64,000 nucleotides of DNA from Piscicola geometra. Its lineage: Eukaryota > Annelida > Clitellata > Hirudinida > Piscicolidae. The notes under the pieces were generated by a model. That model worked only from the letters and a program-made list of their open reading frames with translations. It was not told where the DNA came from and made no database searches. Shown piece after piece: positions 9,501-64,000 of the stretch. How positions within the stretch are numbered: the stretch's first letter is position 1; every line of letters starts with the position of its first letter. Location: contig OX030958.1 of assembly GCA_943735955.1 (NCBI GenBank), positions 4,174,818 to 4,238,817 of the forward strand, written 5' to 3'. A program made the position numbers and the translations under genes.

Positions 9501-10376
9501 GGAGGTGGTCGTGACGCTGGTGATGATGGTCCGTACCGTCGGGGCTGCGGGGGGGTTGGGGAGGGGAGGGGATGGTTGAGGAGGTAGGAGGGGTGAGAGA
9601 TGGGATGGGCTTTTCATTGAATGATTATCATTTTGTAGAATTTTGCATCATTGGCATGTTAACGCGTTGTCACTCTGAAACAAATGTTCAAGCGCCAGTT
9701 GCAAACCGCCACCACAACCACGACTCTCCTCCAACTCTCAAAACTGACCATTCTGCAGACACACCAAGCCTAGGGCGCCTCCTTCGTCAGTGAGTGTCAA
9801 GTTCTTGCCACACACGAATCTGTGTTGGTCGTAGCGAAGAAAGAGAGCTCTGAGGACGCCTCCCTGACACCTCTCAGAGGCGTTGATCCGTTCCAGCTGT
9901 GCAGTGACGCCATATCGCAGCTTCGCCACCGCTAACGTCTCGCTGAGATGCAGGCTGTGGTTCACCAGCCTTTGGCGACAGACTTCGAAGTTGGCTCGAC
10001 TGGGGAAGGAAGTGTTGGTGGAGTTTTCCAGATGCAGCTCTGGAGAAATGATCACCTGTGGTCGGTGTGCAAATCATCATGGATATGAGAAGCGCTTTAT
10101 AAATAGATTTGATTGATTGATGGTTGATTGATCTTCTCGAGAATCGTAAAAGCCAGTGAAAGAGGAATTATCTTGAGAATGTGTTCAATATATATTCCAC
10201 AAACCTTGTCAGCGAGGATATCGATGGTGGCTTGGTTGCTTGGTCTGACGGAGACCTTTTCAACGAGACACAGACGGTCGAAGAGCGGTTGCAGAGTGGT
10301 GAAGGGCTCCATGAAGGAAGCTCCATAGTACTCAGTGCAGTCTCTGATCAGCGCCTGGTGGTCTCTTGGGGTGGGG

Positions 10377-10421
<45 letters not shown>

Positions 10422-10434
10422 CGTGTGTGCGTGC

Positions 10435-10532
<98 letters not shown>

Positions 10533-11576: not shown

Positions 11577-14500
11577 ATGATCAGAGCATCGGTTACCATT
11601 CCTAAGCTGTTGCCGGTAAATTTTAAAATTTCAATTATAAAAAATATTCAATTTTAATATCGTCTCTTTGATATCATTAATTTGAAGTTGCACCATTCTT
11701 AAATTAAAATTTAATTAAAAATTATATTTGATAATTTCACTTTGCAATTCTTAGAAAGCGATCTCAGTTCCAAGAAGAGGAATAATAGTTTCTAATGTTC
11801 TCAAGTCTTCTGGCATTCCTCCTTCTTCACCAAAGTACTTTCTCAATTTACTTACAAGTCCTATTATTTAAATACTGTTTTAATATTTCCTAGAAAAGGC
11901 AGTATAATAAAGAAATTATTCGCGTTGACCCTGGTGAGTGGGGGAGGAGTCGTGGGCTACAGTTGGTACGACCAGGAGTTTCGGAAGCTTCTGGAAGAAA
12001 ATGTTCCATACGCCAAAGACTCCTTTGACACTCTCTTCGAGTACCTCCCCGCCAAGGAGGCCGTTTCCAAATTGTATGCAGAGTAAGGGAATCATCTCTT
12101 CTATTTAACTAAGGCTTCTGACTCTGCTAAATAAAAATAATAAAATAGCAACATAGGAATATAATTTGTTAGTGGCAATTCTGATTTATTGTTTTATAAT
12201 TTTGAAATGAAGGTACTTTGGTGCAAAGGAAGTCAAGCAAGTGCCCCTTATAAAAAAAGTGAATTTAGTTTCAGACAAACATTTTTATACAATTTTTTTT
12301 TTTCTAACTGACATAAATTATTGTATTATTAATAATCATATCATTAATTACTTATAAATATGCATATAATATAAATTTATTAGATTTGTAATAACTTAAT
12401 CAGATTCACCTCAAAATAATCTTCAGATTAAATCTTTAAAATTACCTTAAATTACAATACTTTTCACTTTACAGCCCGTAAAGGAAACCCAACCCGGTTA
12501 GATTTTTCGGCCTAGAACACACTATATAATTACCAACATTGATGACTTCACTAACATAGAATATATTCATTCAAGATTGCTTAATAATATTCATGCTAAT
12601 AATTAAAATAATATAATAATAAGAAAAATATTATTAATTATTATTATTGTTGTTACTTATCACATTGATTATATCTTTAATGATTCTGAGTCTGTTACTA
12701 ATATAATATATAAAAATAATAATAAAGTCGCTAAATTAAAAAAATACCAAAAAAACCTTAATGAAATATTAAATTACTTTTTATACATTTTCTGGACAGC
12801 AGTGGTGGTTGAGAAGACGAAGAAGGACACAGAGACAGACAAGAAGAAGGAGGCAGAGGTACTCTTGAAGGAAAAGAAGGAACACGAGGCTAAACGAATA
12901 ATAGGTTGATTAAATCATCAGCATCTTCATAATCATCATCATCACTCACCACACCACTATCACCCCACTCCCATTTTCACCCCACTCCCATTTTCACACC
13001 ACTTCCAATAGCACATTGCCTCGCCACTTCCCACCACCACCACCACCACCATGCAGACATCGAGAAAGGGCTGGAGAAGAGAGTGGAGGGGGTGAGGGGA
13101 GTGGTGGCATCGCTGACAGAGACCAGCAGGACAGCCACTGAAGCGACCAAGCAGCACTGCGACAAGTTGAGGCTGGCGCTGCAGGTTGTAGTGTGGTTGT
13201 GGTGATTGGCGCTAGGAGGGTTGTGTTGGTTGGTTGTGGTGTGGTGGCGGAGAGGTGGTTATGGTGTGGTGGCGGAGAGGTGGTTATGGTGTGGTGGTGG
13301 AGAGGTGGTTATGGTGTGGTGGTGGAGAGGTGGTTATGGTGTGGTGGTGGAGAGGTGGTTATGGTGTGGTGGTGGAGAGGTGGTTATGGTGTGGTGGCGG
13401 AGAGGTGGTTATGGTGTGGTGGTGGAGAGGTGGTTATGGTGTGGTGGTGGAGAGGTGGTTATGGTGTGGTGGCGGAGAGGTGGTTATGGTGTGGTGGTGG
13501 AGTGATGGTTATGGTGTGGTGGTGGAGAGGTGGTTATGGTGTGGTGGTGGAGAGGTGGTTATGGTGTGGTGGTGGAGAGGTGGTTATGGTGTGGTGGTGG
13601 AGAGGTGGTTATGGTGTGGTGGTGGAGTGGTGGTTATGGTGTGGTGGTGGAGAGGTGGTTATGGTGTGGTGGTGGAGTGGTGGTGGAGAGGTGGTTATGG
13701 TGTGGTGGTGGAGTGGTGGTTATGGTGTGGTGGTGGAGAGGTGGTTATGGTGTGGTGGTGGAGAGGTGGTTATGGTGTGGTGGTGGAGAGGTGGTTATGG
13801 TGTGGTGGTGGAGAGGTGGTTATGGTGTGGTGGCGGAGAGGTGGTTATGGTGTGGTGGTGGAGAGGTGGTTATGGTGTGGTGGTGGAGTGGTGGTGGAGA
13901 GGTGGTTATGGTGTGGTGGTGGAGTGGTGGTTATGGTGTGGTGGTGGAGAGGTGGTTATGGTGTGGTGGTGGAGAGGTGGTTATGGTGTGGTGGTGGAGA
14001 GGTGGTTATGGTGTGGTGGTGGAGAGGTGGTTATGGTGTGGTGGCGGAGAGGTGGTTATGGTGTGGTGGTGGAGAGGTGGTTATGGTGTGGTGGTGGAGT
14101 GGTGGTTATGGTGTGGTGGTGGAGAGGTGGTTATGGTGTGGTGATGGAGAGGTGGTTATGGTGTGGTGGTGGAGAGGTGGTTATGGTGTGGTGGTGGAGA
14201 GGTGGTTATGGTGTGGTGGTGGAGAGGTGGGTATGGTGTGGTGGTGGAGAGGTGGTTATGGTGTGGTGGCGGAGAGGTGGTTATGGTGTGGTGGTGGAGA
14301 GGTGGTTATGGTGTGGTGGTGGAGTGGTGGTTATGGTGTGGTGGTGGAGAGGTGGTTATGGTGTGGTGATGGAGAGGTGGTTATGGTGTGGTGGTGGAGA
14401 GGTGGTTATGGTGTGGTGGTGGAGAGGTGGTTATGGTGTGGTGGTGGAGAGGTGGGTATGGTGTGGTGGTGGAGAGGTGGTTATGGTGTGGTGGTGGAGT

Positions 14501-15348
14501 GGTGGTTATGGTGTGGTGGTGGAGAGGTGGTTATGGTGTGGTGGTGGAGTGGTGGTTATGGTGTGGTGGTGGAGAGGTGGTTATGGTGTGGTGGTGGAGT
14601 GGTGGTTATGGTGTGGTGGTGGAGAGGTGGTTATGGTGTGGTGGTGGAGAGGTGGTTATGGTGTGGTGGTGGAGTGGTGGTTATGGTGTGGTGGTGGAGT
14701 GGTGGTTATGGTGTGGTGGTGGAGAGGTGGTTATGGTGTGGTGGTGGAGAGGTGGTTATGGTGTGGTGGTGGAGTGGTGGTTATGGTGTGGTGGTGGAGT
14801 GGTGGTTATGGTGTGGTGGTGGCGTTTTCGGTAGCCTTTCAAAGTCACACAAAACAACACGCACACAAACACACACGCACACAAACGCACACAAAACAAC
14901 ACGCACACAAACACACACGCACACATAAACACACACATAAACAGGCATCAGACGACAGCAAGGGGGAGTGGGAGGAGGTGGTGGTGTCACAGGAGAGGAG
15001 AGTGCAAGCTGCTGCTGTGTATGAGAGGGTGGAGGTAGAAGCCAGGTGGGTGGATGGATTGGTGGAGTAGTGAATGGATGGAGTGGATGGGTTGTGTAGT
15101 GGAGAGATGGAGGGGTAAATGTATCGAGTGGAAAGTTTAATATGATGAACAATTCGTGTATTTCTTTCATCATCGTCATCATCAACACCATCATCATCAT
15201 CTACACCATCATCATCATCTACACCATCATCATCATCTACACCATCATCATCATCAACACTTCTAGACAGGAGCTCCAAAGGCTGCAAGATGAATTATCT
15301 CAGCTGAAGAGTGATAAATCTTTCAAGGGAAGCAAGGTGATGATGATA

Positions 15349-15380
<32 letters not shown>

Positions 15381-18340
15381 ATGAACAAAATTCTACCACT
15401 ACTACTACTACTACCATCACCACGACGTGAACAGCTGATCAGCTCAGCTGCTGCTGATGCAGAGAAGATGGACAAGCAGCTGAACAGTGCCGCCAAACAG
15501 GTGCCACTGTTAACCTTTCACATCATTATCATCATCGTCATTAGAATCTTCATTATTGTCTTCTTTATTATCGTCTTCTTCATCATCATTATCATCACCA
15601 CCATCATCATCATCATCACCACCACCATCATCATCTCCTCAGTTTTCACGAGCGCAGTCTGAGGCTAAAGTCTTTTCAGAGTACAAGGACTTGGTGAAGA
15701 AGGGCAAAGAGAGGTTTGTGTGGGCGATGATGATGATGATAATGGGTATGATGGTATGATAGTGGTCCTGTAAGGCACAACATCATGATCATAACCACCA
15801 GGTTTAGGAAGGAGTTGGAGGCTGTTATGCCAGGTCAAAGGCCCATTCCAGGTGGACGCCACTTGAAACTATCACCACTTCTCCATCCATCTTCAGATTC
15901 ATCCATTTATCCATTAATTATCCATTCATTCACCCAGCCATTCATTCCTCCACTAAATCCTTTCAACAACTTCTCCATCCATCCATCCTTCTCCACCACC
16001 ACCACGACAGCTTCCTTCAGCAAGATGAACGAGGAGGAGTTGAACGCGCTGATTGGACACGCCCACAAGCGCATCGACCAATTGCAGAAGAGGCTGGCAG
16101 AACAGGAAGCACTCGAACAAGTACCTTTGAGTTTTTAAATCTTTGATTTGTATAAAAATATTCAGAATCGATATTAAATTAATATTCATGAAAACACAAA
16201 TTACTTTTTTTAAAGGAAAAATGTACCTATTAGTTGCACCACCAGGTGCGGATTGCAGACGCGGTGGATCGACAGAAGGAAGAGGACCAGCTGGCGAGTC
16301 GGATGAGTGTCGACTCGAAAAAGGAGGAGTGGAGGAGGCAGCTGCAGGTGCTCAAGTCCAAATGGGTTCGTCATTCATCCATTTATTCATCCACATTCCA
16401 TCCATCCATCTATCTGGTTTTTTTCACTTCACTCATTCAACTGTTAATTTCTTGTATCCTTCCATCTGCATGCCTATATATTTCATGCATCAATAAAATA
16501 GTTTTCATCGATATCTGGTTAATTCATTTTATTTTCTTCTCCATCATTCATTCCTCCATCGCTCACGCCTTTACAGAACTTGGATTCTAAGGCTGCCTTC
16601 GAAGAGGAGTTGAAGGTGCAGATGATCAGGTGAGTGTTTGTGGATGGATAAATGGATTTCATTCACACCCACTTCATCCTTTCATCATCATCATCCCATC
16701 ACCATCCACCAATTCATCACCCCCCCCCCTCCCCCCCCCCCACAGACAAGCAGCCGCCCACAACGACCACATAAACGAAGTGTTGCGGGCACAGCGGCGA
16801 GAACTGGAGGCGAAACACGCGCTCCTATTGGACGAGAGCCTCCAGGCAGAAAGACGCAGCCACCAATCACAAGTGGCCGCGTGGGTGGCTCGCATGAAGG
16901 GGGTGGAGCAGGCTGTTGAGAGTGAGTGGAGGTGCTGGTAATAGTGGTGGTGGCGGAGAGATAAGATGGAGGTTACGCCATTTGTCTAAAAATTGTTATC
17001 CACTATCCACACACCACTTCAAACACCATAAAACCCACGACCACTCCATCTACATCATCCATCCACACCACCCACACCTCAACTCAGAGAGGGCTCAATT
17101 CGAAGAACAGAGCCACCAAGTGCAGCGTTTGTGGCTGGCATGTGAGGCGCTACAAGCAGCCATCGCCACAGGAAACGCCGGTGCGTCAACGTGGCAGGGC
17201 AGGTTGAAGCCTCTGGCGCCTGAAGTGAACCTCATCAAGCAGTCCTTCCCCGACCAACCCGCCATCAGGTGTTTGTTGGGAGTGTTTGAGGGTGTGTTAC
17301 TTTGTGTGTTTGAGGGTGTGTTTGTGGTGGTGTTTGTGGTGGTGTTTGATGGTGTGTTAGTTGGTGTGTTTGTGGTGGTGTTTGATGGTGTTTGATGGTG
17401 GTGTTTGGGGTGGTGTTTTTTGGCTTCTACGAAATGCTGTTTGAGGAAGCTTGAATGTTTCAGAATATTTCATACCTCCAACTTCACAAGTACTATCACC
17501 AACACTGCCATCATCACCATCACCTCCACCACTACCAGAGCGATACTGGATACGATCCCTGAGGTGGCGTTGAGCAGGGGGGTGTGGACGGAAGGCGGTC
17601 TGATGGAGAGGTTCAAGAAGGTCGACAAGGTAACACACGTGTCTTTATAATCCAAATCGATAGAATAAATTATCAACCCAACCCATCATGCTCCATCAAG
17701 CATCTATCCTATTTCATCTCAACCAGGCCACATCCAACCACATCTCAGGTGTGTCGGCGTGTGGCGATGGTGGACGAGACGGCAGGCGTCGATGGCAGTC
17801 TCTTCCGCTACTTCCTCTCCTCCTTCCAATCCAAACTGGTCGTGCCAGGAGTCAGCAAGATCTACGAGAAGGAGGATGACGTGGTCGATGAGGTGGAGTT
17901 GGAGAATGTTTTCTTCCTGCTTGATAATGCACAAGTGGGTGTTTTGTGGAAGGGTGTGGTTGGGCGGTTAGGAAGTGGGATAGGGGGGATGATGGGTATG
18001 GATGGAGTGATTTGGAGGGATAGTGGTTGATGGGAGGAGTTGGTTAGAAAATGTGTCTTTTCAAGGAGGTAAAATGAGTTTGAAGAGTCTCACTTCTCAC
18101 CTACCACCACCACCACCATAATCACTTTCACAAGCACCATCGCCATTTCAGGCATCTCTCGACAGGGGCGACTTGGTGCAGGCAGTCAGGTTCGCCAACC
18201 AATTGACTGGCGAGCCCCGTAGGGCCATCACTGATTGGTTGAACGAAGCCAGGTTGCTATTGGAAACGAAGCAACTGTCCACTGCCCTTTTGGCTTCTGC
18301 ATCGGCCGCTGGCTTCTCTTCCCTTGCAGCCACATCGTGA
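11577..18340 (+). CDS. IMMT: MICOS complex subunit MIC60 (mitofilin)
   Basis: MIC60 is the inner-membrane core of MICOS and shapes crista junctions. Exons found: 11577-11615, 11755-11834, 11894-12082, 12213-12258 (tentative), 12803-12904, 13057-13184, 14945-15045, 15267-15336, 15435-15500, 15643-15713, 15802-15851, 16011-16120, 16246-16365, 16577-16629, 16746-16921, 17088-17268, 17539-17629, 17749-17934 and 18152-18340, about 680 residues. The N-terminus is basic and presequence-like ([13 protein letters not shown], then VPRRG). A short membrane span follows ([18 protein letters not shown]). The middle is charged coiled coil. The C-terminal mitofilin region has [41 protein letters not shown] and [20 protein letters not shown], ending at TGA 18338-18340. 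The junction from exon 4 to exon 5 does not keep frame, so an exon or border there is wrong. Start: first ATG with a presequence-like leader. Confidence 0.92.
13222..14824. repeat. 25-bp GT-rich minisatellite with a 225-bp higher-order unit
   Basis: About 64 copies of a 25-bp unit containing GGAGAGGTGGTTATGGTGTG fill most of an IMMT intron (13185-14944). Variant units (GTGATGGAG, GGTGGGTATGG, GTGGCGGAG) recur 225 bp apart around 14041-14266, 14141-14366 and 14227-14452, so a nine-unit block was duplicated. Because 25 is not a multiple of 3, all frames stay open and give a 25-residue periodic translation. It is not a gene. Confidence 0.95.
14842..14944. repeat. CA-rich tract before an IMMT acceptor
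   Basis: ACACAACAACACGCACACAA-type repeats end at ACATAAACAG, the acceptor for exon 14945-15045. The tract is broadly complementary to the GT-rich array at the other end of the same intron. Confidence 0.8.
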
Positions 18341-18985
18341 CCGCAAGGGTGATGATAATGATGATGATTGTGGTGATGATGATGGTGGTTGTGGTGATGA
18401 TGCTTTGTAAACCATTCGGTGTAGGCCTTTAAATGCAATTTTCGTCTTATTCAAATAGTATTATTGGAAGGAATATGAAAGAATATATTACAAGTTAGAT
18501 TATTTGAAAATATAAGATTTAATTATATAAAAAATCAATTGATTATTTCTATATTTAAATTGTATTTATGTTTTTTATTTTTCCGGGCTTGTTTAATAAA
18601 TTCGTTTGACTACTATTTAATATTAATTATTAATATAAATTTAATATTATTTAATGATAAATGGACAAGACATGTTAGAAAGTTTTGAGACCTGTCTGCG
18701 TCAACATTATTTTTATAATAAGCGGTTCTAAACTGTATTTTTTTTATTCAAATCACCAACATTTAATGAAAATTATTGAAATAAAAGCTAAAATTTGACG
18801 TTTTCCCGCTAGTACAAATTTTTTCTGTCTATGGTAATATTTAAAAGTTGATTTACGTTGAATTTTTTCCACTTTAAACACATATATGTGAATTAAAGTT
18901 ATTTAGGCTTTATTATACATCTTTTTTTTACTAATAGAAAACATTTACTTCAATTAGGAACTATAAAAAACTTGAAACGTGCATC
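18341..18985. other. Intergenic spacer between IMMT and ELYS
   Basis: An ATGATG-type microsatellite follows the IMMT stop, then about 560 bp of AT-rich sequence with no coding frame. AATAAA near 18594 is a possible IMMT poly(A) signal. The ELYS promoter should lie in this spacer, but I see no clear motif. Confidence 0.6.
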
Positions 18986-34393
<15,408 letters not shown>

Positions 34394-34753
34394 TCGAGAC
34401 CGATTAGCAAACTAATTGGTCTTCAATTAAGAAAATACTTGTTAATTATATACTTTTCTATTTAATTATGATTTTATTAGCGCGAAATCAACAAATATTA
34501 CATCTTTTTATAGTTGGTTTCAAATGGTTATTAATTAGCACTTGTTAATTATATTATTTGGTAGATAATCACATTTTGGATAACATTAAATCTTTTTTTA
34601 GCTTGATTTTTTTGTACATTTAAAAAAAGACATTTTATAACAATTCTTATTTATTTAACTTTGAAGTAAAAAAAGCGAAATTTCAAGATATTTAAGATAA
34701 AAAGCTTCATAGCCAGTCGGCTGAGTGACTCTTCAATGGGGGAGAATGGATGA

Positions 34754-36151
34754 TCAGCTGGGTTTGTCTTGCCTCTGCCTCTTCTTCACGTTCCAGTTGT
34801 ACACCCTTGCCATGTCTGCACTCGTCGTCAAGGAAACTCCACATGGTTGCAAGAATGGAAGCCGCCCTTACCAGCTCCTCTTCCACCCTCCCCCAACCCA
34901 CTCTACCCCTTTTCCCCAGCCCACTCTACCCATCCATCAACCATAAAATCCCAATCAACCACCACACCAACACCTGACTGACACACACTCACACACAGAT
35001 GCAGCTCAAAAGGATACTGACTTCGATGGTGGTGGTCTGGTCGCGCAGGAAGGCCAGGTCCTCTTGGAAGCCTGTGAGTGTCTTCTCGGCGGCATCCTGG
35101 TTCTGCTGCAGCAACTCCCTCGCCTCCTCCAGACTGTACTCGAGCATCACGTTTGCCTGTGGTTGGTTGTGGAAGGGTGTATAGTGGTTGTGTGAGGATT
35201 GTGAAGTGGTGGCGGTGGTGGCAGAAAGATGATATTTATGTTGGTATCATATGCTGGAGCATAAGAAAACTGAAAAAAATTCTTATAAATCTCATTGAAA
35301 ATATTTATTATTGATGGAATGATGAAGGCATGATAATGATAGTGGTTATGATGATGGTGATAATTATGATGGTAGTGATGATGATGCTCTTAAGAACTCA
35401 CTCCAAGCCAGAGGCACACTTTGTCAGTGGGAGGCACTGTTGCCCTCATGAAGATTGAGTCAGCTATCTGGTACTGTGTCTCCATTGTTTTCTGTGCACA
35501 TGAACGTGTGTGTGTGTATGTGTGTTTTTTGTGATAACAAATTTTGTTTTTCATACACACCTTTTGAGATTCCAAAAATGAAATTATGTTTAGAGAAGAC
35601 TTTAATTCAGGGATTTGAATCTTGAGCCTGAGAATTTTTTAATAGTTTTTAAATTTATAAAATTACTGTAAAAGTATTTAAAATGTATATATAAAATATT
35701 ACTACTAAATATAGAGTCTATATTATAGACTCTATTTTTCAACCAAATACAATATTTAATGAGGCATTAAAATATTGACGCATCAAACCTTTCCTTTTTT
35801 GAATTGAGATTGTGTTCCATGAACTTGTACTTTTGGTACTGTTCATCGAGCTGCTTCAAGAGCACTGACACAGTCAAGCCTTCATTCTTCACCATGAACT
35901 CATCTACATCATCCTGCAAAATTTATAACATTAAAATGTCTTAATACTTTATGATTTACTGTTCCATCACATTTTAAAAACTTCATCCTTTTTTTAAATG
36001 GATTCATGGTGTTCCCGGTGCGGTTTATAAATTAATAATGAGAATTAAAATTCAATTAATGATAATTAGCTTCATATCAATGACTTACGAGAAATATAGC
36101 TTTAGGGATGCCGGACACACTTTTTTCAGTCGTTACCGAGGTGCTAGCCAT
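34754..36151 (-). CDS. VBP1: Prefoldin subunit 3 (VHL-binding protein 1)
   Basis: An alpha-type subunit of the hexameric prefoldin chaperone, which passes nascent actin and tubulin to the cytosolic chaperonin. Six minus-strand exons keep frame to a 181-residue protein: 36151-36089, 35913-35789, 35627-35561, 35491-35402, 35156-35018 and 34815-34754. Start is ATG at 36151 (MASTSVTTEK). Diagnostic segments are GIPKAIFLDDVDEFM, LLKQLDEQYQKYKFMEHNL, RLKIQIPELK, ATVPPTDKVCLWLG, ANVMLEYSLEEARELL and EVNMARVYNWNVKKR. Long heptad-like helices flank the central hairpin segment, as expected for prefoldin. The length is close to the usual 190-200 residues. The gene is tail-to-tail with ELYS, 360 bp apart, and head-to-head with the ASB-type gene. 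Confidence 0.96.
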
Positions 36152-37425
36152 TTCAATGCAAAGAACTTTTATCGCTCTGCATAGAGTTTTAAATAATATC
36201 CCATTATCAACCTAAAATAACAACTTATTTTGTAGCTGAAACAAGATTTTTTAAACATGTCAGAATTGTTCAGTGATAAATATTCTGACTGCTAACAGAC
36301 AAAGTAAAATACTTTAAAATCATGACACATTTTCCCATATTACTAGCAAAACCATAGATATAGTATATTGTTTGTAGCATAGATATAGTATATATATACT
36401 ACTTGTTGTTTGTATGATATCTATGATTTGTAGGATATCTATGAGTAAAACATGCTGATGACTTTTAGTGCTCTGACCATTATTATGCCAAAACTTATGG
36501 ATGGAACAATTTCACATATTTTTAAATTTTCATTGTTAACATTTTGTTTTTAATAAAGTGGTTAAGACTTCGAAAAAAAGCATAACTGTCCACAGTATAC
36601 AAATCATTTGGACACCTCGTTTAAAAAATAAGTTTTGACTACTTTATTATTCGTAGGTCGCCCACTGGTGACTTTTTTCAAGTTATCTTAGGCTGCAAAA
36701 CTTAAAATGTTCAATTGCAAATTATTTTCTACAATTTCTTGAAAGGTTAAAAAATATATATTTTATGTTTCAAAAATGTATACTACGCAGATAATATTTT
36801 ATTATTCCTAATTCAAATACTTGTTATGTACTTCTGCAATGTTTTCACTCTATCTGCACTGCCATAATTTAGTTTCTTGTTATTTTGGCAGTGATTGCTT
36901 GTAGCACAGGGCTCATATAGCCTTCAACGCAATATATACCACGAAGCGTAAAAGAGAGATGCTTTCTTATTTACTTTTTCTTACAATTAGTGGCTATTTC
37001 CCCTTGTTTCTATCCATAACAATTCCTATATTGCACTTCCTTTGCTTACGACTAGGATTAAAGACGCTTGAAACAACCGGCTATTTTTAAACACGTTTCC
37101 ACCTCATACATATTGATTATTTTTATTGTTTCTACATAAAGTAAATAAATAGAAAGAAATAATAAGTTGGTTGTAGTAATTGGTTGTTTTTGAAAAATTG
37201 TAAATATGCAAATCTATGATAACTCGAAATAAAAAAATTGTTAACAACATCAAACATTATTTAATAAAATACATTCATAACTTAAACCATTTATCATTTA
37301 CTTAAACATAAACCTTTCCTTGCTCAACCGTTACTTCATGCTAACAATAACACACACGTGCTCAAAGAACCAACGATAAGTTCTTCGGATGCTTGCATGA
37401 CAACAAGTGCCAACGTCTGCAAGAG
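36152..37425. other. Shared upstream region of VBP1 and the ASB-type gene
   Basis: About 1.27 kb of AT-rich sequence lies between two divergent starts. It contains a short duplicated ATAGATATAGTATAT tract near 36353-36400. I see no coding frame, and no promoter motif can be named. Confidence 0.5.
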
Positions 37426-40400
37426 ATGACAGCCATAAAGAAAGAAGATCATTTCAAGGTTTGCAAACTTTGACATTTCTAGAGCTATTGCTAATGTTGA
37501 AGAGCGTTCGAATTGCATTAAAAAGTCATTCGAAACTTTTGCTTGCTACTCGCTTTTTATTGGGTATGCCATCGTCATTTAATATTTAATGTGCAGATAG
37601 TTTAGATTAGGTTGGTTTATTTTCCGAAACTAACCAGAGTCGATCTCTCGTCCAAACCACTCATGCACACTTCACCACTCTTTAAAACACCAAAGCACGC
37701 CAATCAACTTTTTCAACGTTTAAAACTTTTTAAACAATAAATCTTTCTCTTCGATAGACCTCCCGTTTCTTAAAAACAGGAACGCCTGTTCAGCGCATGC
37801 GAAGAAGGCAAAGTGAAGCTGGCGCATGACGTCATCATGAAGTATCCTCATGATAATGATGAGATCGTCAACTGCCTCAGTGGCGACTTTAAAACGCCAC
37901 TCTACGTCGCTATCGCTGCCAAGAGGTTGTGTGGTTGTGGTGGTGTGGTTTGATGAGGCTTGGTGTGGTTGTGGTAGTGTGGTTTGGTGTTGTGTAGTGT
38001 GGTTTGGTGTGGTGTGGTGTAGTGTGGTGTAGTGTGGTGTAGTGTGGTGTAGTGTGGTGTAGTGTGGTGTAGTGTGGTGTAGTGTGGTGTAGTGTGGTGT
38101 GGTGTGGTGTGGTGTGATGTGCTTTGGTGTTGTGTGGTGTGGTGTGCTTTGGTGTTGTGTGGTGTGGTGTGGTGTGATGTGGTGTGATGTAGTGTGGTGT
38201 GATGTAGTGTGGCGTAGTGTGGTGTGTTGTGGTGTGGTGTGGCGTAGTGTGGTGTGGTGTGATGTAGTGTGGTGCGATGTGCTTTGATGTTGTGTGGTGT
38301 GGTGTGCTGTGGTGTGCTTTGGTGTTGTGTGGTGTGATGTGGTGTGATGTAGTGTGGTGTGGTGTGATGTGGTGTGATGTAGTGTGAAGTGGTGTGATGT
38401 GGTGTGGTGTAGTGTGGTGTGGTGTGATGTGGTGTGGTGTTGTGTGGTTTAATGTGGTGTGGTGTGCTTTGGTGTGGTGTGGTGTGGTGAGATGTGGTGT
38501 GGTGTGGTGTAGTGTGGCGTAGTGTTGTGTGAATTGGTGTAGTTTGATTTGGTATGAAAATGATTTGAAACAACCTAATTTCGATTTTCAAACTCAATCA
38601 ATCTATAAACTGGAAATGTTCATTATTAATTTTCTTGCATATGCATTCTTCACAGTCTCAAAGAAATCCTCAAAGCAACACTCAAACTACCAACACACAG
38701 TCTCCCACTGGTGCGACTGCTGATAAAGCACGGAGCAGACGTGAACAAGGAGAGCACGGTCTTCTACGGCAAGGACTGCACTTCTGCCTCGTTCGAGACG
38801 TGCAGGGAGCCGCCTGTGGTCACGGCTGCCAGGATGGGATGTCCGAAGGTGCTGCAGTGTCTCATCAGGAACGGTGGGTGGGGTTGGGAAAGTGGATGAA
38901 TGGGTTTGGCATGTAGCGTTGGTATCATTTAGGATGGAGGGTGGATTGGTTTGGTGGATGGGTGGGTGTTCCTGTTTGGAATGATGGGTGGGTACGGAGA
39001 TCAATTTGAGCTAGTGATTGGGTCACTATAAAAGACTGACTATAAAAGCTAAACGTGTACCTTCCAAACTATCTCAGGCTGTGAGGCAAAAAAGCAGGCA
39101 GGAGTGGCATGCAGTCCCCTGCAAGAGGTGCTGAACCCAAACGCTGAGAGGTGAGGTGGTATAGGCGATGGAGTGGTGAATGATAAAGCCACTACTAATC
39201 AATGCCGTGAAATCATGTGACCCTGTTTCGTTTATAACAAAAACAGTTAGTCTGACTTCCCCTTAGCACTAAGTGCGAGCTTTAAACAACAACAACAACA
39301 ACAACATACAGGAAAGCTCTGAGGCGACAACGACTTGGGAAGACTGCAAAGATGCAGCAAGAAAACAAAAACGACGAAAACAACTGTGACAAGAAGTTAT
39401 GCGACAAGATGAGTGGCAGTGTGGACACGCAGACAGAGGAGGGCAGAAAGAGAGACAAGGAGAGACACAAGAGAGGCAGACTGGCCACTGGTCACCTGGG
39501 CATGAGTGCCCTCCACCACGCCTGCGAGGCTTGTCAGGTTCAGCTTGTTTCGTGCTCGATTCTTCTTTTAGGGTATTTATAGAATTTATGCAAAAGAATT
39601 TTCTTGATTTTTTTTGTTGCTTGACGAAAAAGTGAGTTTACTGAGTTCATATAGGTGAAGCCATCTTAATTTTTTCAAATAAAATATAACGCAATAATTT
39701 AATTTAAACGTAAACATACATACACATACATAAAAACACAAACAAAAACACACACACAGATAGACAACGTTCGACTGCTTCTGCGCACGCGACCAGACGT
39801 GAATGTGGAGGAGGGACGGAGGCTCGAAAGACCCCTCCACTTGCTCGCCAGGTTGGTGGACTTTTGTGCTTGTATGACTTCGTTTCTTTAGAAATTAAAT
39901 GAACTTTAAAAATGAGTTTTTGTTGATCCATGCACGTATTAAAGTCTCTTATCAATTATAGGCTATAATTTGTGAAAGATTTATTTCCCGATATTATAAA
40001 TCTAATTTATTATTCTAATTAAATTATTAAATTTATTATTATCTGTTGAGAGAATTGTATAAGTATAGTGAAGAGGTGTGTAGGCGGTTGTTTGCAAGAT
40101 ATTTGAACGATAGCAGCCTGCCTAGCTTTGTTGCTTTCAGAAGCTTAAGTATGAAAGTGTTGATTTGATTGATGGAAAGACACCATGACCTTTAAAATGA
40201 TGAGAGCAAAAGCATAGTAACTGATGCAGTGAAAATACTAGTGATGAGCCGAGTATTTGAAATCAAGAAATAATTTTATATTAATAAATATTTAAAAAAT
40301 GAAATAACATTTAGCAAGACTGACCTTCCACAAACTCACCAACCAACCAACAGATGCCAACAGGCCTTATGTGAGAAGCAGTGTGAGATCATTGAGTTGC

Positions 40401-41257
40401 TGTGTTCTGTTGGAGCCGACTTCAACGCACTGAACAAGAAGCATCTGAGTCCCTTCTACCTGAGCTGCCTGTACGGCTGCTCCAGGAAGGTGGAAATCTT
40501 CCTCAAGAATGGCGGCAGTGCTAACCCTTACGACGCCCACGGGAAGTGCACGTCTGACTGGGGAGGCTATGGCTCAGGCTTGCACATCGCCGCCTACAAA
40601 GACTTCCTTCCGTTGGCTGTAGCGCTGGTGAACGGAGGAGCAAACCTGAACTGGAAGAACTCAGCCGGTCTGACGCCCTTGCAACTGAACGTATCAGTCA
40701 GGTGCAAGAGCAACATAGCGGCCCTGCTCATCTTCCATGGCGCTCTCCTGAACGACAAAGTGCCCTCCAGACCTGACCATGCAGCTTCCATTGGCACCAG
40801 TGATGGAATGAGTCTGCTTTCGAAAATCATTTCAACGCCTCGGTTAGACTGCGAAAGCTTATCAATCCTGCTTGTGCAAGCTGGCTACAACCTCAACCAA
40901 GACCACTGGCTGATGCCTGACATCGAACTAGACAATCCATTGTTGGATTCCAGTCCAGAAGGCATTCAGAACTTAGTTACCAGGTTGAAGTCTAGTGTTA
41001 CTTCCCCAGCTGAAAAAAGAGTTTCAAAGTTGTGCAAATGGCTGCGTTACAAACAACAATCGGTTCGCAGTCTTCTGGAAACTTGTCGCACTGTGATTCG
41101 AAACCGCCTTGTAGTCAGCAATGGAGGAAAGTCAATCGTGTCGAACATTTCGAAAATTCCTCTGCCCATTTCTTTGAAAAATTACTTGCTATTAAAAAAC
41201 ATAAACGGAAAGAATCTAGAGCCGATGATTTTAAACTGTCTAGAAGAATTGCAATAG
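37426..41257 (+). CDS. Ankyrin-repeat and SOCS-box protein (ASB type)
   Basis: ASB proteins are substrate receptors of Cullin5-Elongin B/C ubiquitin ligases: ankyrin repeats hold the target and the SOCS box docks the ligase. Seven exons keep frame to 563 residues: 37426-37458, 37780-37925, 38656-38873, 39078-39150, 39312-39537, 39760-39851 and 40354-41257. Ankyrin signatures include TPLYVAIAAKR, LVRLLIKHGADVN, PVVTAARMGCPKVLQCLIRN, MSALHHACE, PLHLLAR, IIELLCSVGADFNALNKK and LHIAAYKDFLPLAVALVNGG. The C-terminus (about 502-542) fits a SOCS box: SLLETCRTVIRNRL, then ISKIPLPISLKNYL. A lysine/arginine-rich insert (KNDENNCDKK, GRKRDKERHKRGR) splits the repeats. The first exon is a short call (MTAIKKEDHFK) that splices in phase. 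AATAAA at 41315-41320 is a likely poly(A) signal. I cannot assign an ASB number. Confidence 0.9.
37926..38550. repeat. GTGTGGTGTA-type array at an ASB donor
   Basis: A degenerate array of GTGTGGTGTAGTGTG blocks begins at the 5' splice site after exon 37780-37925 and fills most of the intron. Frames through it give VWCGV-like translations that are not genes. Confidence 0.92.
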
Positions 41258-41314
41258 GGATTTTTTAGAGTTATTAAATGATTTTTATCTAAATTATATT
41301 TATATTTTCATAAG

Positions 41315-41320
41315 AATAAA
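41315..41320 (+). terminator. Poly(A) signal AATAAA of the ASB-type gene
   Basis: AATAAA lies 58 bases after the TAG stop, in an AT-rich 3' region. Confidence 0.5.
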
Positions 41321-42596
41321 ATATATTTTTTAATTTATCGTATATTCACCTTTTTAAAAATGGGTTTGTTTTGTACAGCATTGATGCAAGCTGGTAGGTG
41401 TTGCTTGTGATAAAGATTAAAAACAACTTTAATGCTATTTCCACTCGTTTCTAAAAAAATATGAAAATAATTTCGAAAACTTTATTCAGGGATAATGTTC
41501 GCCTCGTAATGACTACTCATCTCAGAATATTGTGATAATTGATTCTTTAGTTTGATAATTGGACATTTAAACATTTATTTTCCGCATTTAAAAATAAAAA
41601 GTGATCTGTTGGAAATTTATTTATTGTTAAATCGACTATGTTATTCTACCTGATTACGGATGTTAAATCATCGTTTAGACTCTAAACTTTAGAGTAAAAT
41701 TAGTCCGGTAGTTGAAAGGCTTAATCTTAAGAAAGGTCGGGAAAAAACTAGTAGACATTTAAATCTCTATATAGATGCAAAATTATATATTAAAAAGTAT
41801 TTTTGGGTTACGCCATCTCAACTTTTGTTTAAGTAATATTTGTTAATTTCGTTGAACTGAGCGATAACAGTTGTTTCTAAGCTATCTGCGAATGGAGTTA
41901 AAACATTTTGTATGTTTGAATTATGGTTTTTATGTATTTTTTAATTAATATTCTTGAAATTTGAGTTAATTAACTTTCACACCCTGCAGATATTTCAAAT
42001 CAATCAGCTCTAAAGACTCTAAAGTTTAGAGTCTAAACCGTTTTGGATTACTTCCTAGTTGATTCTTAGACTTTGGTGAGTGAAGGTTACATTTATAATT
42101 TACAACATCAAATACTTATTCATACCTATTCATATTCTTTTTGTTTTAAACTTTAGTAAATTTTTAAACCTAAGGTTATGGTGATAGGGTCTGTTTCTAG
42201 TAATAGGTTTGAGATAGTGTGTTATTTGTTGTCATTTAACATTTGAAAATTAACCAATGTAACTGAAATAGGATTAGCCATATTAATTGACAGTTGTGAG
42301 GTTAGAGATCAGAAGGTTTTATTAGAACATTTAACTTCTAATCATTAGATTCTAATGATTAGAGTCTAATGTAAGTAGCATTCTTGTGCACAATTCAAAT
42401 AGAAAATCTTTTACCAGAAGCATAGAAATAAATAAAAAAAGAATGGATAATGATTTTTAAAATGTCAACAATTTTGTATGTTCAACTAAAATTCTCTTTG
42501 TTCTTGGGATAATTTTGTGTGGAAGTATTTTTTTGTTTTTTATGTGCATCTTATATTGTTAATTCTCCTAAAAAAAGAAGAGTTAGTACATTAGAG

Positions 42597-43640
42597 CTTG
42601 GTACTACTTTTTGGCTTCAATGTAAGCTGCGTAATGACAAACGGGCACTGGATGTTCTAGGGTGTTTACAATGATGCAGTGATTTGAATGCCGAAGAGGC
42701 AGTTTATCATTCAAATTGCCTAGCTCGCTTCAAAAGTGGTTTCACCATGGCACCTGGTACAGCATCTCATGGACGACCTGAAAATGCGGTTTCAAAGGAT
42801 GCCTTTGAGAGACTTTGCAACCGTTTTGAAAGTATTTATGAGCAAGGATTATACACTATAGAGGAGTTATATGATGTAATGAAAAACGTGAATCGAATCA
42901 AGAAAACCTTTATTCAATTAAGCATTTAAAATATTCGGTCATAGCAAAATATGGAGAAAAAAAATTGTTTTCCACTGTTAGTGGACGAAAACATGTAATA
43001 TGTTTCAAAGACTGTTGTAATTATGTTCTTAGTGATGTACGGTATGGCGAACGAAATAAGGATTCGAGCAGTGAACATGAGCGCATTCTCAAAACTGCTG
43101 CTCAAATAAGTGAATTAAAATGTGATTTGGTTAACTACCCTACTACTGACGAAATAAAAAGGGAAATGACGTTATAATGTTTCCACTATTAAAATGTTTT
43201 ATGCAAACTTTGGTTAAATGCAAGGTTAAACAAACAGCCATTAGTCAATCTATTGTTCATACTTCTTGTGGAATTATTATGGCAGTGTTGTTTGGCCTAG
43301 GTGTTCAATTAGATCATTTTTTTGCCTCTAAATACTTGCTGCAGCCTTTGTCTAGACTTGGCTTTTGTTGTTCATATGACGAAGTGACAAGGCTTTAGAA
43401 ATCTTTTTTAGATTCCTCCATTCCCAAAACTGGCCAGATGGAAATAGAATAAGTAATCAAGATGGTGCAAATTGCTTTGTTCAATTTGTTGCTGACAATG
43501 TTGACCATAATGTACATACTTAAATGGAAATGGGACTTTTCATGGCATGGGAGTAATTTCGGCTACATTGTCAGAATTAGGCCGTGTTAGCCCAAGCAAA
43601 GACAACATTCCTCGTCTTAAGGGTAGTATGCATTTGGGTA
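42597..43640 (+). pseudogene. Broken coding remnant of a mobile-element protein family
   Basis: Several frames carry parts of one protein. Recognisable pieces are KLRNDKRALDVLGC, LNAEEAVYHSNCLARF, SGRKHVICFKDCCNYVLSD, FGLGVQLDHFFASKYLLQPL, SRLGFCCSYDEVTRL, CFVQFVADNVDHN and NGTFHGMGVISATLSEL. They are separated by at least three frame changes and several stops (one TGA near 42670). I recall similar proteins as multicopy families in invertebrates and cnidarians, but cannot name the class. It lies within the inverted repeats at 41734 and 44238 and is probably the former transposase or accessory protein. Confidence 0.6.
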
Positions 43641-43685
43641 GTTTATGTAATAAGGTATGAGTTTAAATAGTCCCATATAATAAAT

Positions 43686-43847
43686 CTCATGTACGATATT
43701 ACCATCTTGTTCTCATGTACGATACTACCATCTTGTTCTCATGTACGATACTACCATCTTGTTCTCATGTGTGATACTACCATCTTGTTCTCATGTGTGA
43801 TACTACCATTTTGTTCTCATGTGTGTTACTATCATCTTGTTCTCATT
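43686..43847. repeat. 26-bp tandem repeat inside the decayed element
   Basis: About six copies of a 26-bp unit containing TCTCATGTACGATACTACCA. Later copies drift (GTGTGATACTACC, then GTGTGTTACTATC). Confidence 0.9.
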
Positions 43848-44262
43848 TTGAATAATAATAAATAAATGGGAAAATAAATAAATAAAAAAGTCTTGTTGTA
43901 AATATGATACTATAAGTAAAGATTTAAAAAATCTGATTAAAATCAATTCTATTTTGACCTATAATGACCTTATGATATGGTCAAAGTCAAGTTATTTTTG
44001 TAAGTTTAAAATTTTAATGATTTAATTTAAATTTTATATCATTATATAAATAATATTTTTTTTAATTTTACAGTTTGAAAAATAATTAACTAGAGCCGAT
44101 TATAAAAATTGACCTTCAACTTTGACCCATAAAGTCCGAACGTCCATCTGAGAATTGGCACAACCCCCTCAAATTGAAGAGAATAAATTTCTGATTCGTT
44201 TGATATATATTTCATGCTTGCTAGTTTTTTCCCGACCTACTGCTTCCAGTCTACCTGACTAA

Positions 44263-52285
<8,023 letters not shown>

Positions 52286-52287
52286 AT

Positions 52288-52665
52288 TAGGGGTGGCTGT
52301 GGTGGCCGTGGTGGTAAAGGTTGAAGTGGTGACGGTGGTAAGATGAGGTGAGGTGGCCGTGGTGGTAAGATGAGGTGTGGTGGCCGTGGTGGTAAGATGA
52401 GGTGAGGTGGCCGTGGTGGTAAGATGAGGTGTGGTGACGGTGGTAAGATGAGGGGTGGTGGTAGTGGTGGTAAGATGAGGTGTGGTGGTAGTGGTGGTAA
52501 GATGAGGTGTGGTGGCCGTGGTGGTAAGATGAGGTGTGGTGGCCGTGGTGGTAAGATGAGGTGTGGTGGCCGTGGTGGTAAGATGAGGTGTGGTGGCCGT
52601 GGTGGTAAGATGAGGTGTGGTGGCCGTGGTGGTAAGATGAGGTGGGGTGGTAGTGGTAGCATTGG
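52288..52665. repeat. 27-bp GGTGGTAAGATGAGG minisatellite
   Basis: About 14 copies of a 27-bp unit containing GGTAAGATGAGGTGTGGTGG, with GGCCGT or GTAGT variants. Unit length is a multiple of 3, so Pro/His-rich and Gly/Lys-rich frames stay open; it is not a gene. Confidence 0.92.
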
Positions 52666-53689
52666 CCTTTCGAGTTCAAAGACCGCCATTACTCTGTATT
52701 ACTTTAAAACTTTAAAAGAATACTTTTTAAGCTTTTATTATTCCCTTTAATTGGTCTATTTTGTATATTATTATTGTCTTTTGTCTGTTATTATTCATTA
52801 TTTTTATTATTTTAATCATTTGTATTATTGTTATTTTTTATATATATTTCAAATCATGTAATTAAAGCCTATTAACTTCCCATTAATCGTTTCGTTCATT
52901 CAACTTGATTAGCTTAGTGCCTTGATGAAAATCTGAATTATTTTTAGACATTTTACATGTTTTTAATATCCCTAATCTAATTCACACACCGAACTTATTG
53001 TCTAACAGATTATGAGCATAATTTTAATTAAATTTTAAAATTATCTTTATATGGCTTTACATTCTGAAATGTGCGATTTCTTCGAATGTAATTAATAATT
53101 TCTGTGACTTTTAAACTTCAATACAATGAATACAAAGTTAAATTTGTATACTCATTCAAAATATAGGAAAACGCGTAGAATAGTAGTTTGTATTGTTTCC
53201 AAAAGTTTTTAAAAGATAGCTAAAGTTGCACAGTGAGAATGGCAAATTTTTAAATAAATCATGAAAAAAGCATTTAGAAAAAACAAAAATATATGCTAAC
53301 CCAGCATAGTTTTAAAATGTTCAAATAGCAATAAAAGATTTTTCGAATTATGATTTGCGTTAATACATTTTTTTAGATAACAACGCATGCAAAATACTAA
53401 GTGTTGGCAGTGTTTGGTTTGGGGATAGGGGGTTTATCAACGTGGAGATGTAGGAGAGTAGCTGAAGACAGTAATTCAATTTTTTTAAAGCTAGAATAAT
53501 GTTCCTGTATAACAGATTTTAGTGTGTAAGTTAAAATTAAAAACTAAATTTTATCATTTGAATTTACAATAGTTTGACATCTTAATTTATTCGTTTCTAA
53601 GTTCCCTGCTGTTTTTTAAATGTATTTAAAGAGCCGGTTATAAATACATTTTCTCAGATTCGCTAATTAAATTTAGTTTAAAAACAAAA
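52666..53689. other. AT-rich spacer upstream of GMP reductase
   Basis: About 1 kb of AT-rich sequence with no coding frame. It must contain the GMP reductase promoter, but no motif stands out. Confidence 0.5.
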
Positions 53690-56651
<2,962 letters not shown>

Positions 56652-57338
56652 CTTCCGAGGCGTGCTCCCATTTGGTTTGCTACATACTCACTAGGTTTTG
56701 GTTCAATGAAGACATTTTTAAAAGAGAAGGAGAGTCAAAATTGATTGGCTACATTGTTTGACATTGTTCAACTCTGCTGTGAATTACTCAGTATTGCTTT
56801 CTTGTTCTTTCTTTGACCTCCAGCTCACCAGGGATTTGTTAGTTTCATGTGATTTCGATGCAACGACCTTGATTGCTTTGGCTTTCTCAAGAGACCCATT
56901 CACTTTTATTATGCAGTTATTCTCGAATCTATAGACTATAACTTAAATGGTGCATAATCTCCCACTCAATTCAAGGTCGTTTTTGTCGTCTGCTGTTCTA
57001 CTTAGGAGATACAAAAGCATTGTTCTCTTTGGTTTGGGATTTACTTTAAAATATAGTTTATTATAAACTATAAATTGCTTTTTCACTGACTTTATTCACC
57101 GTTTACAACATAGTTGATTGAAGATCATAAGTATTCGATTTTTTCTTTTCAATGGAATTATTATTAATATATTGATTAGGAAAGTCTGTATAATTGTAAA
57201 AAAATATTCTTAAAATTAATGAAAATGTAATGGTTAAAATTATTTTTAAATAAATAATCAAAATTCTCGTTTCAGGCTGAACCATTTAAAAACCATAATT
57301 TCTCCTAGCTTGGTGCGGTGGTTAGTTGTGCAAAGCCG
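56652..57338. other. Intergenic spacer between GMPR and the KDM7-type gene
   Basis: About 690 bp without a coding frame, presumably the GMPR 3' UTR followed by the KDM7-type promoter and 5' UTR. A 5' noncoding exon may exist but cannot be recognised. Confidence 0.5.
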
Positions 57339-62769
<5,431 letters not shown>

Positions 62770-62990
62770 GTGCTGCTGCTGATGGTGGTGGTGATGGTGG
62801 TGCTGGTTGTGTTGGTGGTGATGGTGATGGTGGAGTTGATGGTGTTGGTGGTGATGGTGATGGTGGAGTTGATGGTGTTGGTGGTGATGGTGATGGTGGA
62901 GTTGATGGTGTTGGTGGTAAGGATAGTGAAGGTGGGGTGGTGGTGGTGAGGGTGATGGTGGTGGTGGTTGTGATGGGATCAGTAGTTTCG
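62770..62990. repeat. GGTGATGGTGATGGTGGAGT repeat
   Basis: GTGGTGATGGTG-rich tandem repeats follow the presumed donor of the last KDM7-type exon seen, including about three copies of a longer unit (GAGTTGATGGTGTTGGTGGT). Confidence 0.85.
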
Positions 62991-63059
62991 TTATTTTATT
63001 TATTTCTTCTTTTTTTCTCCCCTTCTTTCATCTCCTTCCCTTCTCTTTCACCAACTCTT

Positions 63060-64000
63060 CCTTCTCTCAATCCCCTCCTTCCATCACTCCTCCACCTCCT
63101 CCACCACCTTCACCACCACTTCTTCCATCTCTACTACCACCACCTCCACTTCCTTCACCTCCACCTTCTCCACCACCACCTCCACCTCCTCCACCTCCTC
63201 CACCTCCACCTCCTCTTCCTCCTCTACCACCTTCTCCACCTCCACCACTTCCACCACCTCCACCACCTCCCCCACCACTACCTCCACCACTTCCACCACT
63301 TCACCCACCTCCACCACTCCTCTCCACCTTTTTCATCTCCTCCACCCCCTCCACCTCCTCCACCACCTTCACCACCACTTCTTCCATCTCTACCACCACC
63401 ACCTCCACTTCCTTCACTTCCACCTTCTCCACCACCACCTCCACCTCCTCCACCTCCTCTTCCTCCTCTACCACCTTCTCCACCTCCACCACTTCCACCA
63501 CTTCCCCCACCACTACCTCCACCACTTCCACCACTTCCACCACCTCCACCACTCCCTTCCACCTTTTTCATCTCTTCCACCCCCTCCACCACTTCCACCT
63601 CCACCACCTCCACCTCCTCCACCACCTTCTCCACCTCCACCACCTCCACCACTTCCACCACCTCCACCACCTCCTCCACCTCCACCACCTCCACCACTTC
63701 CACCTCCTCCACCACATCCACCACCTCCACCACCTCCACCACCACCCCTACCTCCTCCACCTCCACCACCACCACCACCTCCTCTACCACCTCCACCACC
63801 ACCTCCTCTACCACCTCCACCACCACCACCACCTCCACCTCCTCCACCTCCACCTCCTCTACCACCTCCTTCACCACCACCACCACCACCTCCTCCACCA
63901 ACTCCACCTCCTCCACTCCCCTTCACCTTCTCCACCACCTCCACCTCCTCCACCACCTCCACCACCTCCACCTCCTCCACCTCCACCTCCTCCACTTCCA
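63060..64000. repeat. CCACCTCC/CCACTTCC polypyrimidine-like array to the window end
   Basis: About 940 bp of CTCCACCACC, CTTCCACC and TCCACCTCC blocks. A larger segment recurs: CACCACCACTTCTTCCATCT (near 63110 and 63370) and the surrounding 200 bp are duplicated about 262 bp apart. It is C-rich on the transcript strand, probably within the KDM7-type intron. Confidence 0.9.

Follow-up and report, generated by a model that had tools for sequence, protein, structure and literature searches.

Polarised G/T- and C/A-rich arrays at intron ends suggest an unusual marking of splice sites in the leech Piscicola geometra

The stretch analysed here, referred to as the window, is 64,000 nucleotides of the leech Piscicola geometra (G000:C4:4174818-4238817), taken from a 171-Mb genome of 66 contigs. 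It contains a VWDE-like gene on the minus strand and, on the plus strand, genes for IMMT, ELYS, an ASB-type protein, an Ajuba-type protein, GMPR and KDM7. Read in the sense of transcription, introns of these genes tend to carry G/T-rich arrays at their starts and C/A-rich arrays at their ends and, as set out below, the intron sets analysed show no enrichment of a U-rich tract before the acceptor; this combination suggests an unusual marking of splice sites in this leech. The introns and intron ends concerned are the following, with positions in the window and "finder" denoting the gene finder described below.

13185..14944, plus strand: IMMT intron whose donor side holds a 25-bp TGG-rich minisatellite (13231-14822) and in which a CA/CAA array runs to the acceptor (14846-14943)
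16922..17087, plus strand: IMMT intron with a short G/T-rich donor side (G+T 0.56 over 100 nt) and a C/A-rich acceptor side
17269..17538, plus strand: IMMT intron with a GTGTTTGTGGGT array starting at its first base
22488..22630, plus strand: ELYS-side donor with a TG array, as placed by the first-pass annotation
25225..26340, plus strand: ELYS intron with a 33-bp array, GGTGAGTGGGTGGATGGG..., whose units contain the donor-like GGTGAGT, and a 20-bp CACCTCACTCCAACACACAC array running to the acceptor
27938..28292, plus strand: ELYS intron, ends as in the first-pass annotation (finder model 27902-28302), with a TTGTTGGTGTT array at the donor and a CCACACCCC array at the acceptor
28394..29157, plus strand: ELYS intron with a GGTGGGTGGTGCATG array from the donor, 51 copies
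31919..32209, plus strand: ELYS intron with a TGG array at the donor and a CA array at the acceptor
32855..33151, plus strand: ELYS intron with a CA array running to the acceptor
37926..38700, plus strand: ASB-type gene intron with a GTGTGGTGTG array from the donor (37929-38531)
48083..48188, plus strand: Ajuba-type gene, (CA)n running to the acceptor
49736..50143, plus strand: Ajuba-type gene intron with a C/A-rich array running to the acceptor
54959..55191, plus strand: GMPR intron with (CA)n running to the acceptor, its exons set by reading frame and homology
55506..55948, plus strand: GMPR intron with a G/T-rich donor half and a CACCACTAACCCTCC array in the acceptor half
58649..61522, plus strand: KDM7 intron with a long GGTGGGTGGTGCTTGTTT array from the donor and a short CAT/CCT-rich acceptor end
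62026..62384, plus strand: KDM7 intron with (GT)n from the donor
62770..64000, plus strand: KDM7 donor (finder 62785) with a TGG-rich side, followed by C/T/A-rich sequence up to the end of the window, the acceptor lying outside the window
10377..10543, minus strand: VWDE-like gene, sense-strand (CA)n ending at the acceptor
2953..3151, minus strand: VWDE-like gene, sense-strand ACACCACTGACACCACC array ending at the acceptor
1217..1407, minus strand: VWDE-like gene, sense-strand ACAACAACACCACAACG... array ending at the acceptor

The first-pass annotation had described GT- or GGT-rich sequence at named donors and CA-rich sequence at named acceptors, and both descriptions hold. All 12 donors start with GT, and in 11 of them G+T makes up 0.86-0.99 of the next 100 nt, the exception being the donor at 16922 with only 0.56. 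Each of the 10 plus-strand acceptors ends in AG, and G+T amounts to 0.02-0.21 of the 100 nt before it; at the three places named in the minus-strand VWDE-like gene the sense-strand G+T is 0.07-0.16. Two of the latter (2952 and 1216) match the finder's gene model and the third (10362) is off by 14 nt, the model exon ending at 10376. The donors at 27938 and 62770 also differ from the model (27902 and 62785, by 36 and 15 nt respectively), the exon preceding the donor at 22488 is absent from it, and the ELYS intron at 25225-26340 is uncertain, its upstream exon being just 6 nt long in the model; the IMMT ends at 16922 and 17087 fit GTGAGT and CAG better than the finder's 16931 and 17092. The presence of an array at an intron end is a tendency only, as 66 of the 107 window introns have no matching array within 60 nt of either end. 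Introner-like mobile introns of one family share sequence and terminal inverted repeats; here array units vary between introns, as judged by eye and not by a systematic search. The KDM7 donor array includes a higher-order repeat at 59339-60273, in which two stretches about 508 bp apart have seemingly identical open frames.

Introns were predicted with a small hidden Markov model using a strand-symmetrised non-coding model and splice models covering -3 to +6 at donors and -4 to +1 at acceptors, in the window and in 20 further 10-kb stretches. These were sampled at round positions along contigs C1-C11, and the window's own contig supplied two. The output comprised 334 introns, of which 271 were kept and 63 dropped (flanking exon score of 5 or less, or 30% or more repeat). 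A homology-supported set was assembled from exon-level matches to kinesin motors, myosin heads and U2AF2, giving 27 and 24 introns, to which 9 GMPR introns (making 60) and 17 IMMT introns (making 77) were added. Profile positions had to meet across the junction (gap of 12 or less) or a single match had to span it. The set is drawn from compact genes only and excludes introns failing this rule. The GMPR protein spliced from 53690-56651 is 80% identical to that of Helobdella robusta, its best named match, and the spliced IMMT protein covers positions 9-613 of the 614 of Pfam Mitofilin. All 77 introns have GT...AG ends, by construction, because the finder models only GT-AG introns. Pattern counts across the whole genome yielded 8 matches and 1, too few for use.

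The 271 introns contain 286 tandem arrays, of which 56 are G/T-rich, 100 C/A-rich, 72 AT and 58 mixed. Compared with uniform placement within the same introns, G/T arrays are concentrated within 10 nt of donors (17 of 56, 3.6 expected) and C/A arrays at that same distance from acceptors (38 of 100, 7.5 expected). Wrong-way C/A arrays are depleted at donors (2 of 100, 7.4 expected, P ~0.006); the corresponding depletion of G/T arrays at acceptors (2 of 56, 3.6 expected) is not significant. The pattern is present in unlinked stretches and on both strands: at the same distance, the 20 outside stretches alone have 8 G/T to 0 C/A arrays at donors (p=0.008) and 13 C/A to 1 G/T at acceptors (p=0.002), and the window alone has 9:2 (p=0.07) and 25:1. 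A G+T fraction (K) above 0.6 on the donor side together with one below 0.4 on the acceptor side is found in 34 of 271 introns, and the reverse in none. In the homology-supported set 19 of 77 introns are polarised and one is reversed, a short AT-rich kinesin intron; G+T is under.3 on 28 acceptor sides and over.7 on one, and over.7 on 18 donor sides and under.3 on one. G/T and C/A arrays together occupy 17.5% of predicted intron sequence, 7.1% of other non-coding sequence and 3.9% of predicted exon sequence.

Coverage by arrays differs between the two ends. C/A coverage is.16-.18 at 10-160 nt from acceptors compared with.06-.07 at 160-1000 nt on the same side, and G/T coverage is.003-.042 within 80 nt of acceptors and about.10-.12 deeper in. 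The acceptor rule is thus one of C/A gain together with G/T avoidance. Past donors, C/A arrays occupy.007-.048 of the initial 40 nt and.07-.12 deeper in, whereas those of the G/T type occupy.05 of the initial 10 nt and about.10-.115, near the interior level, at 20 nt and beyond; array starts, unlike G/T coverage, are enriched at donors. The donor rule is therefore C/A avoidance with anchoring of G/T array starts, and this anchoring is partly a finder effect, as seen with decoys in which each G/T or C/A array was reverse-complemented in place and the finder re-run. With all arrays flipped, acceptors went from 37:2 to 3:30 and donors from 18:2 to 5:11. Over six half-flipped sets the totals were 119:104 at acceptors and 71:35 at donors (about 12:6 per set). 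Because the flipped decoys reverse it, the acceptor polarity is no product of the finder; the donor polarity is inflated by it, since half-flipped decoys still favour G/T at donors by about 2:1. The proposal that polarity follows the gene is borne out by its presence on both strands, in outside stretches and in homology-supported introns, and by its reversal on array flipping.

The canonical metazoan 3' splice site has a U-rich polypyrimidine tract bound by U2AF2, and recognition of this tract is a textbook step of animal splicing. In the 75 of the 77 homology-supported introns that are at least 90 nt long, positions -25 to -5 of the acceptor are depleted of T (.219, mid-intron.349, p 2e-7) and enriched in C (.372, mid-intron.188, p 1e-11), with A at.335 (mid.331) and G at.074 (mid.132), so that C + A account for.707. 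Donor positions +7 to +27 have G of.249 (mid.132) and C of.134. No enrichment of U-rich tracts was seen at acceptors in the homology-supported set (14 of 77, compared with 18 of 77 mid-introns and 15 of 77 donor sides) or in the wider set (39 of 271 acceptors, 47 of 271 mid-introns). A 9-mer of C and A only occurs in the 30 nt before the acceptor in 33 of the 77 introns, mid-intron in 8 and on the donor side in one. The composition is not confined to arrays: in 183 introns whose final 60 nt hold no C/A array, C is.277 vs.149 and T.295 vs.365, and AT-rich introns also lose T at the acceptor (.329 vs.388, 94 introns). By eye, early introns of GMPR (53777-54035) and KDM7 (57470-57735) look AT-rich and free of arrays. 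A long AG-free zone precedes the acceptor (median 50 nt, 29 nt from mid-intron; the same 75 introns), and branch points may therefore sit far upstream; a k-mer contrast for a branch-point motif yielded C/A and CU words only, with no clear branch site. The earlier suggestion that a C/A tract may replace the polypyrimidine tract thus stands as a statement of composition, U being depleted and acceptors C/A-rich, and may extend to function.

We favour, with a probability of roughly 0.6, the interpretation that the two splice sites are under independent constraints and that a C/A-rich tract stands where animals usually have a U-rich one. To judge from the genome sequence, what array orientation reports is not own-end pairing but constraints linked to the splice sites, above all an acceptor tract rich in C/A and poor in G and U. 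The arrays would arise by simple-repeat growth within introns, which is abundant in this leech, and would be channelled by the two constraints. At the 3' end, the spliceosome would accept, and apparently prefer, C/A-rich sequence low in G (CA, CCA, TCA, CCAT) immediately upstream of (A)CAG, with C/A-type repeats being retained and G/T repeats removed. At the 5' end, G/U-rich sequence would be retained and C/A-rich sequence avoided, perhaps because the latter would resemble a 3' splice site. A factor, either U2AF2 or a partner, may recognise the C/A tract, selection may purge repeats in the wrong orientation, and splicing may depend on the tract.

Several observations weigh against this interpretation. 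The donor polarity is partly a finder effect, the real 18:2 being set against about 12:6 in half-flipped decoys. C+T is slightly raised at acceptors, through C (.591 vs.537, p=0.004, 75 introns;.580 vs.527, 232 introns), CU-rich words are found in a subset of acceptors (CTCTT 18 vs 5), and 31 of 77 acceptors have neither tract by the definitions used. An array-based co-occurrence table (11, 19, 41, 174) gives an odds ratio of 2.5 (p=0.03) for arrays at the two ends of one intron. The leech U2AF2 is the same as the human protein at 16 of 19 checked positions, including F262, F304, K260, K225, R227 and V254; most of the RNA-contact residues checked are thus conserved, and K195, F197 and F199, which we take to be RNA contacts, are among the unchanged positions. 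Finally, since a single genome was put through the pipeline, ordinary polypyrimidine tracts enter the comparison from established knowledge.

A further-reaching possibility, which we consider doubtful, is that the leech lineage re-coded its 3' splice site from U-rich to C/A-rich together with the reader, through a stepwise change in U2AF2 RRM2 RNP2 beside F262, and that C/A microsatellites thereby became usable as splice signals and spread in introns. U2AF2 exons for RRM1, RRM2 and the C-terminal RRM are located at C16:4641623-4646165, with the RRM1 RNP2 exon (RRLYVGNIPFG) upstream in stretch L021, and the protein is 76% identical to that of Helobdella. The leech RRM2 RNP2 has the sequence KIFIACLP. 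In an alignment of 121 sequences (the leech and the best 120 matches listed), the pair at AC is GG in 109, GC in 6, AC in 3 and GA in 3, the AC carriers being this leech, its close relative P0121 and Helobdella. In a U2AF2 tree of 36 rows the AC clade (100/99) is nested within an AC+GC clade (97/90), and on this alignment and tree the change from GG to AC is lineage-specific. The pair aligns with human G264-G265, and the three differences from human at the checked positions are G264A, G265C and D272E. In the part of PMC7408900 available, G264W is reported to alter splicing and is discussed beside F262, which stacks on U3. In both the AC and the GC rows, K340 and N341 of the RRM2 extension are replaced by N and P; in the human protein this extension covers the same (third) uracil, and PMC4786784 assigns G338 and K340 to the third nucleotide. 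A strong claim about U2AF2 is countered by RRM2 of PUF60, a protein named as poly(U)-binding, which reads VAS, with A and S at the G264-G265 positions. That U2AF2 simply lost uridine binding is weakened by this and by the 16 of 19 unchanged positions. As a separate observation, variants of VNYHIPSVYDAVFATYALRDVYVVWSGAS occur in predicted exons of the unlinked stretches L002, L018, L019, L020 and L035, and one lies inside a U2AF2 intron (C16:4645067-4645141); these are probably a dispersed element mistaken for coding sequence by the finder.

Neutral slippage without function, in which GTGAGT seeds GT/GGT arrays, CACAG seeds CA arrays and avoidance of AG near the acceptor completes the pattern, we regard as unlikely. 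It would account for donor arrays that repeat a donor-like unit (GGTGAGT in 25224-26082), for arrays abutting splice sites and for the long AG-free zone. However, the gain of C and loss of T persist at the 183 acceptors lacking a C/A array, and GT, TGG and TGA arrays, which are equally free of AG, are nearly absent near acceptors.

The first-pass annotation had proposed that the GU-rich donor end and the CA-rich acceptor end of one intron pair, forming a hairpin that brings the splice sites together, and this now seems improbable, its specific predictions having failed in swap, block-shuffle and co-variation tests. In RNAduplex calculations on 232 introns, donor ends bind their own acceptors at -22.1 kcal/mol and other acceptors at -21.3 kcal/mol (p=0.97), and other donor ends more strongly still (-23.7); for the 42 most polarised introns the values are -34.5 with their own and -34.1 with swapped acceptors (p=0.85). 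Folds of 167 introns of 100-400 nt contain 12.2 end-to-end pairs compared with 12.7 in 40-nt block shuffles, and those of 29 polarised introns 25.7 compared with 26.4. Polarised introns do have about 26 such pairs against about 9 in others, and their mean fold-energy z is -2.48 relative to global shuffles, although it is -0.55 relative to 40-nt block shuffles. Donor and acceptor composition are uncorrelated within introns (Spearman 0.04), and composition-based co-occurrence within an intron (odds ratio 1.39, p=0.25) is no higher than that between neighbouring introns (1.85-1.88). The array-based table given above points the opposite way. In 11 of the 245 introns that reach 100 nt, arrays are present at both ends, and C/A arrays without a G/T partner outnumber those with one (41 vs 11). 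Generic pairing of G/U with C/A may nonetheless arise as a by-product, because the end compositions are complementary and polarised folds beat global shuffles.

An artefact of the finder or of the window is hardly credible, for although the finder has its preference for G/T at donors and at least three window boundaries of its model look wrong (GMPR exon 4, IMMT 16931/17092), flipped decoys reverse the polarity, homology-supported introns and the 20 other stretches concur, and the finder works with the narrow splice models and symmetrised non-coding model described above.

AC/GT structured introns of fish were reportedly described by Lin et al. (2016, Genome Res 26:12) and proposed to replace the need for U2AF2. 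They share with the leech introns a GT-rich start and an AC-rich end, reportedly in the same polarity. The leech introns differ in using other units too (CCA, TCA, TGG, TGA, minisatellites of 15-33 bp and one array of about 2.6 kb), in having ends that vary independently and pair no better together than with strangers, and in a C/A bias that extends to array-free introns. A U2AF2 gene is present in the leech genome. These introns of fish and lamprey are the closest known case, as far as the available part of PMC7404189 goes. With canonical metazoan introns, for which (Y)20NCAG is the human 3' splice-site consensus in the part of PMC6339879 available, the leech introns share GT-AG ends, a CAG acceptor, an upstream AG-free zone and a U2AF2 gene in the genome, but U is depleted before the acceptor, where C + A predominate (.707). 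In the donor region, the enrichment of G (.249 vs.132) is a point of likeness to the GU-rich and G-rich intronic enhancers near 5' splice sites, although in the leech such sequence is sometimes expanded to long tandem arrays. The repeat-rich genome is in line with that of H. medicinalis, for which the accessible part of PMC7303139 gives 10.28% simple repeats. Literature searches, with most subscription journals outside their coverage, returned no paper on leech or annelid splice-site tracts among the matches listed.

If the favoured interpretation is correct, a lineage that lacks U enrichment at acceptors while retaining a U2AF2 whose RNP2 has changed would serve as a natural experiment in the joint change of a core splicing signal and its reader. 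It could also explain how simple repeats accumulate in introns while genes stay intact, and gene predictors tuned to polypyrimidine tracts may misplace leech exons. Elsewhere in the window, a 16-bp minisatellite, AGGATAAAAAGTCTTC, is present in about 55 copies at 46447-47333 and is followed by a shorter, nearly reverse-complement array at 47886-47977.

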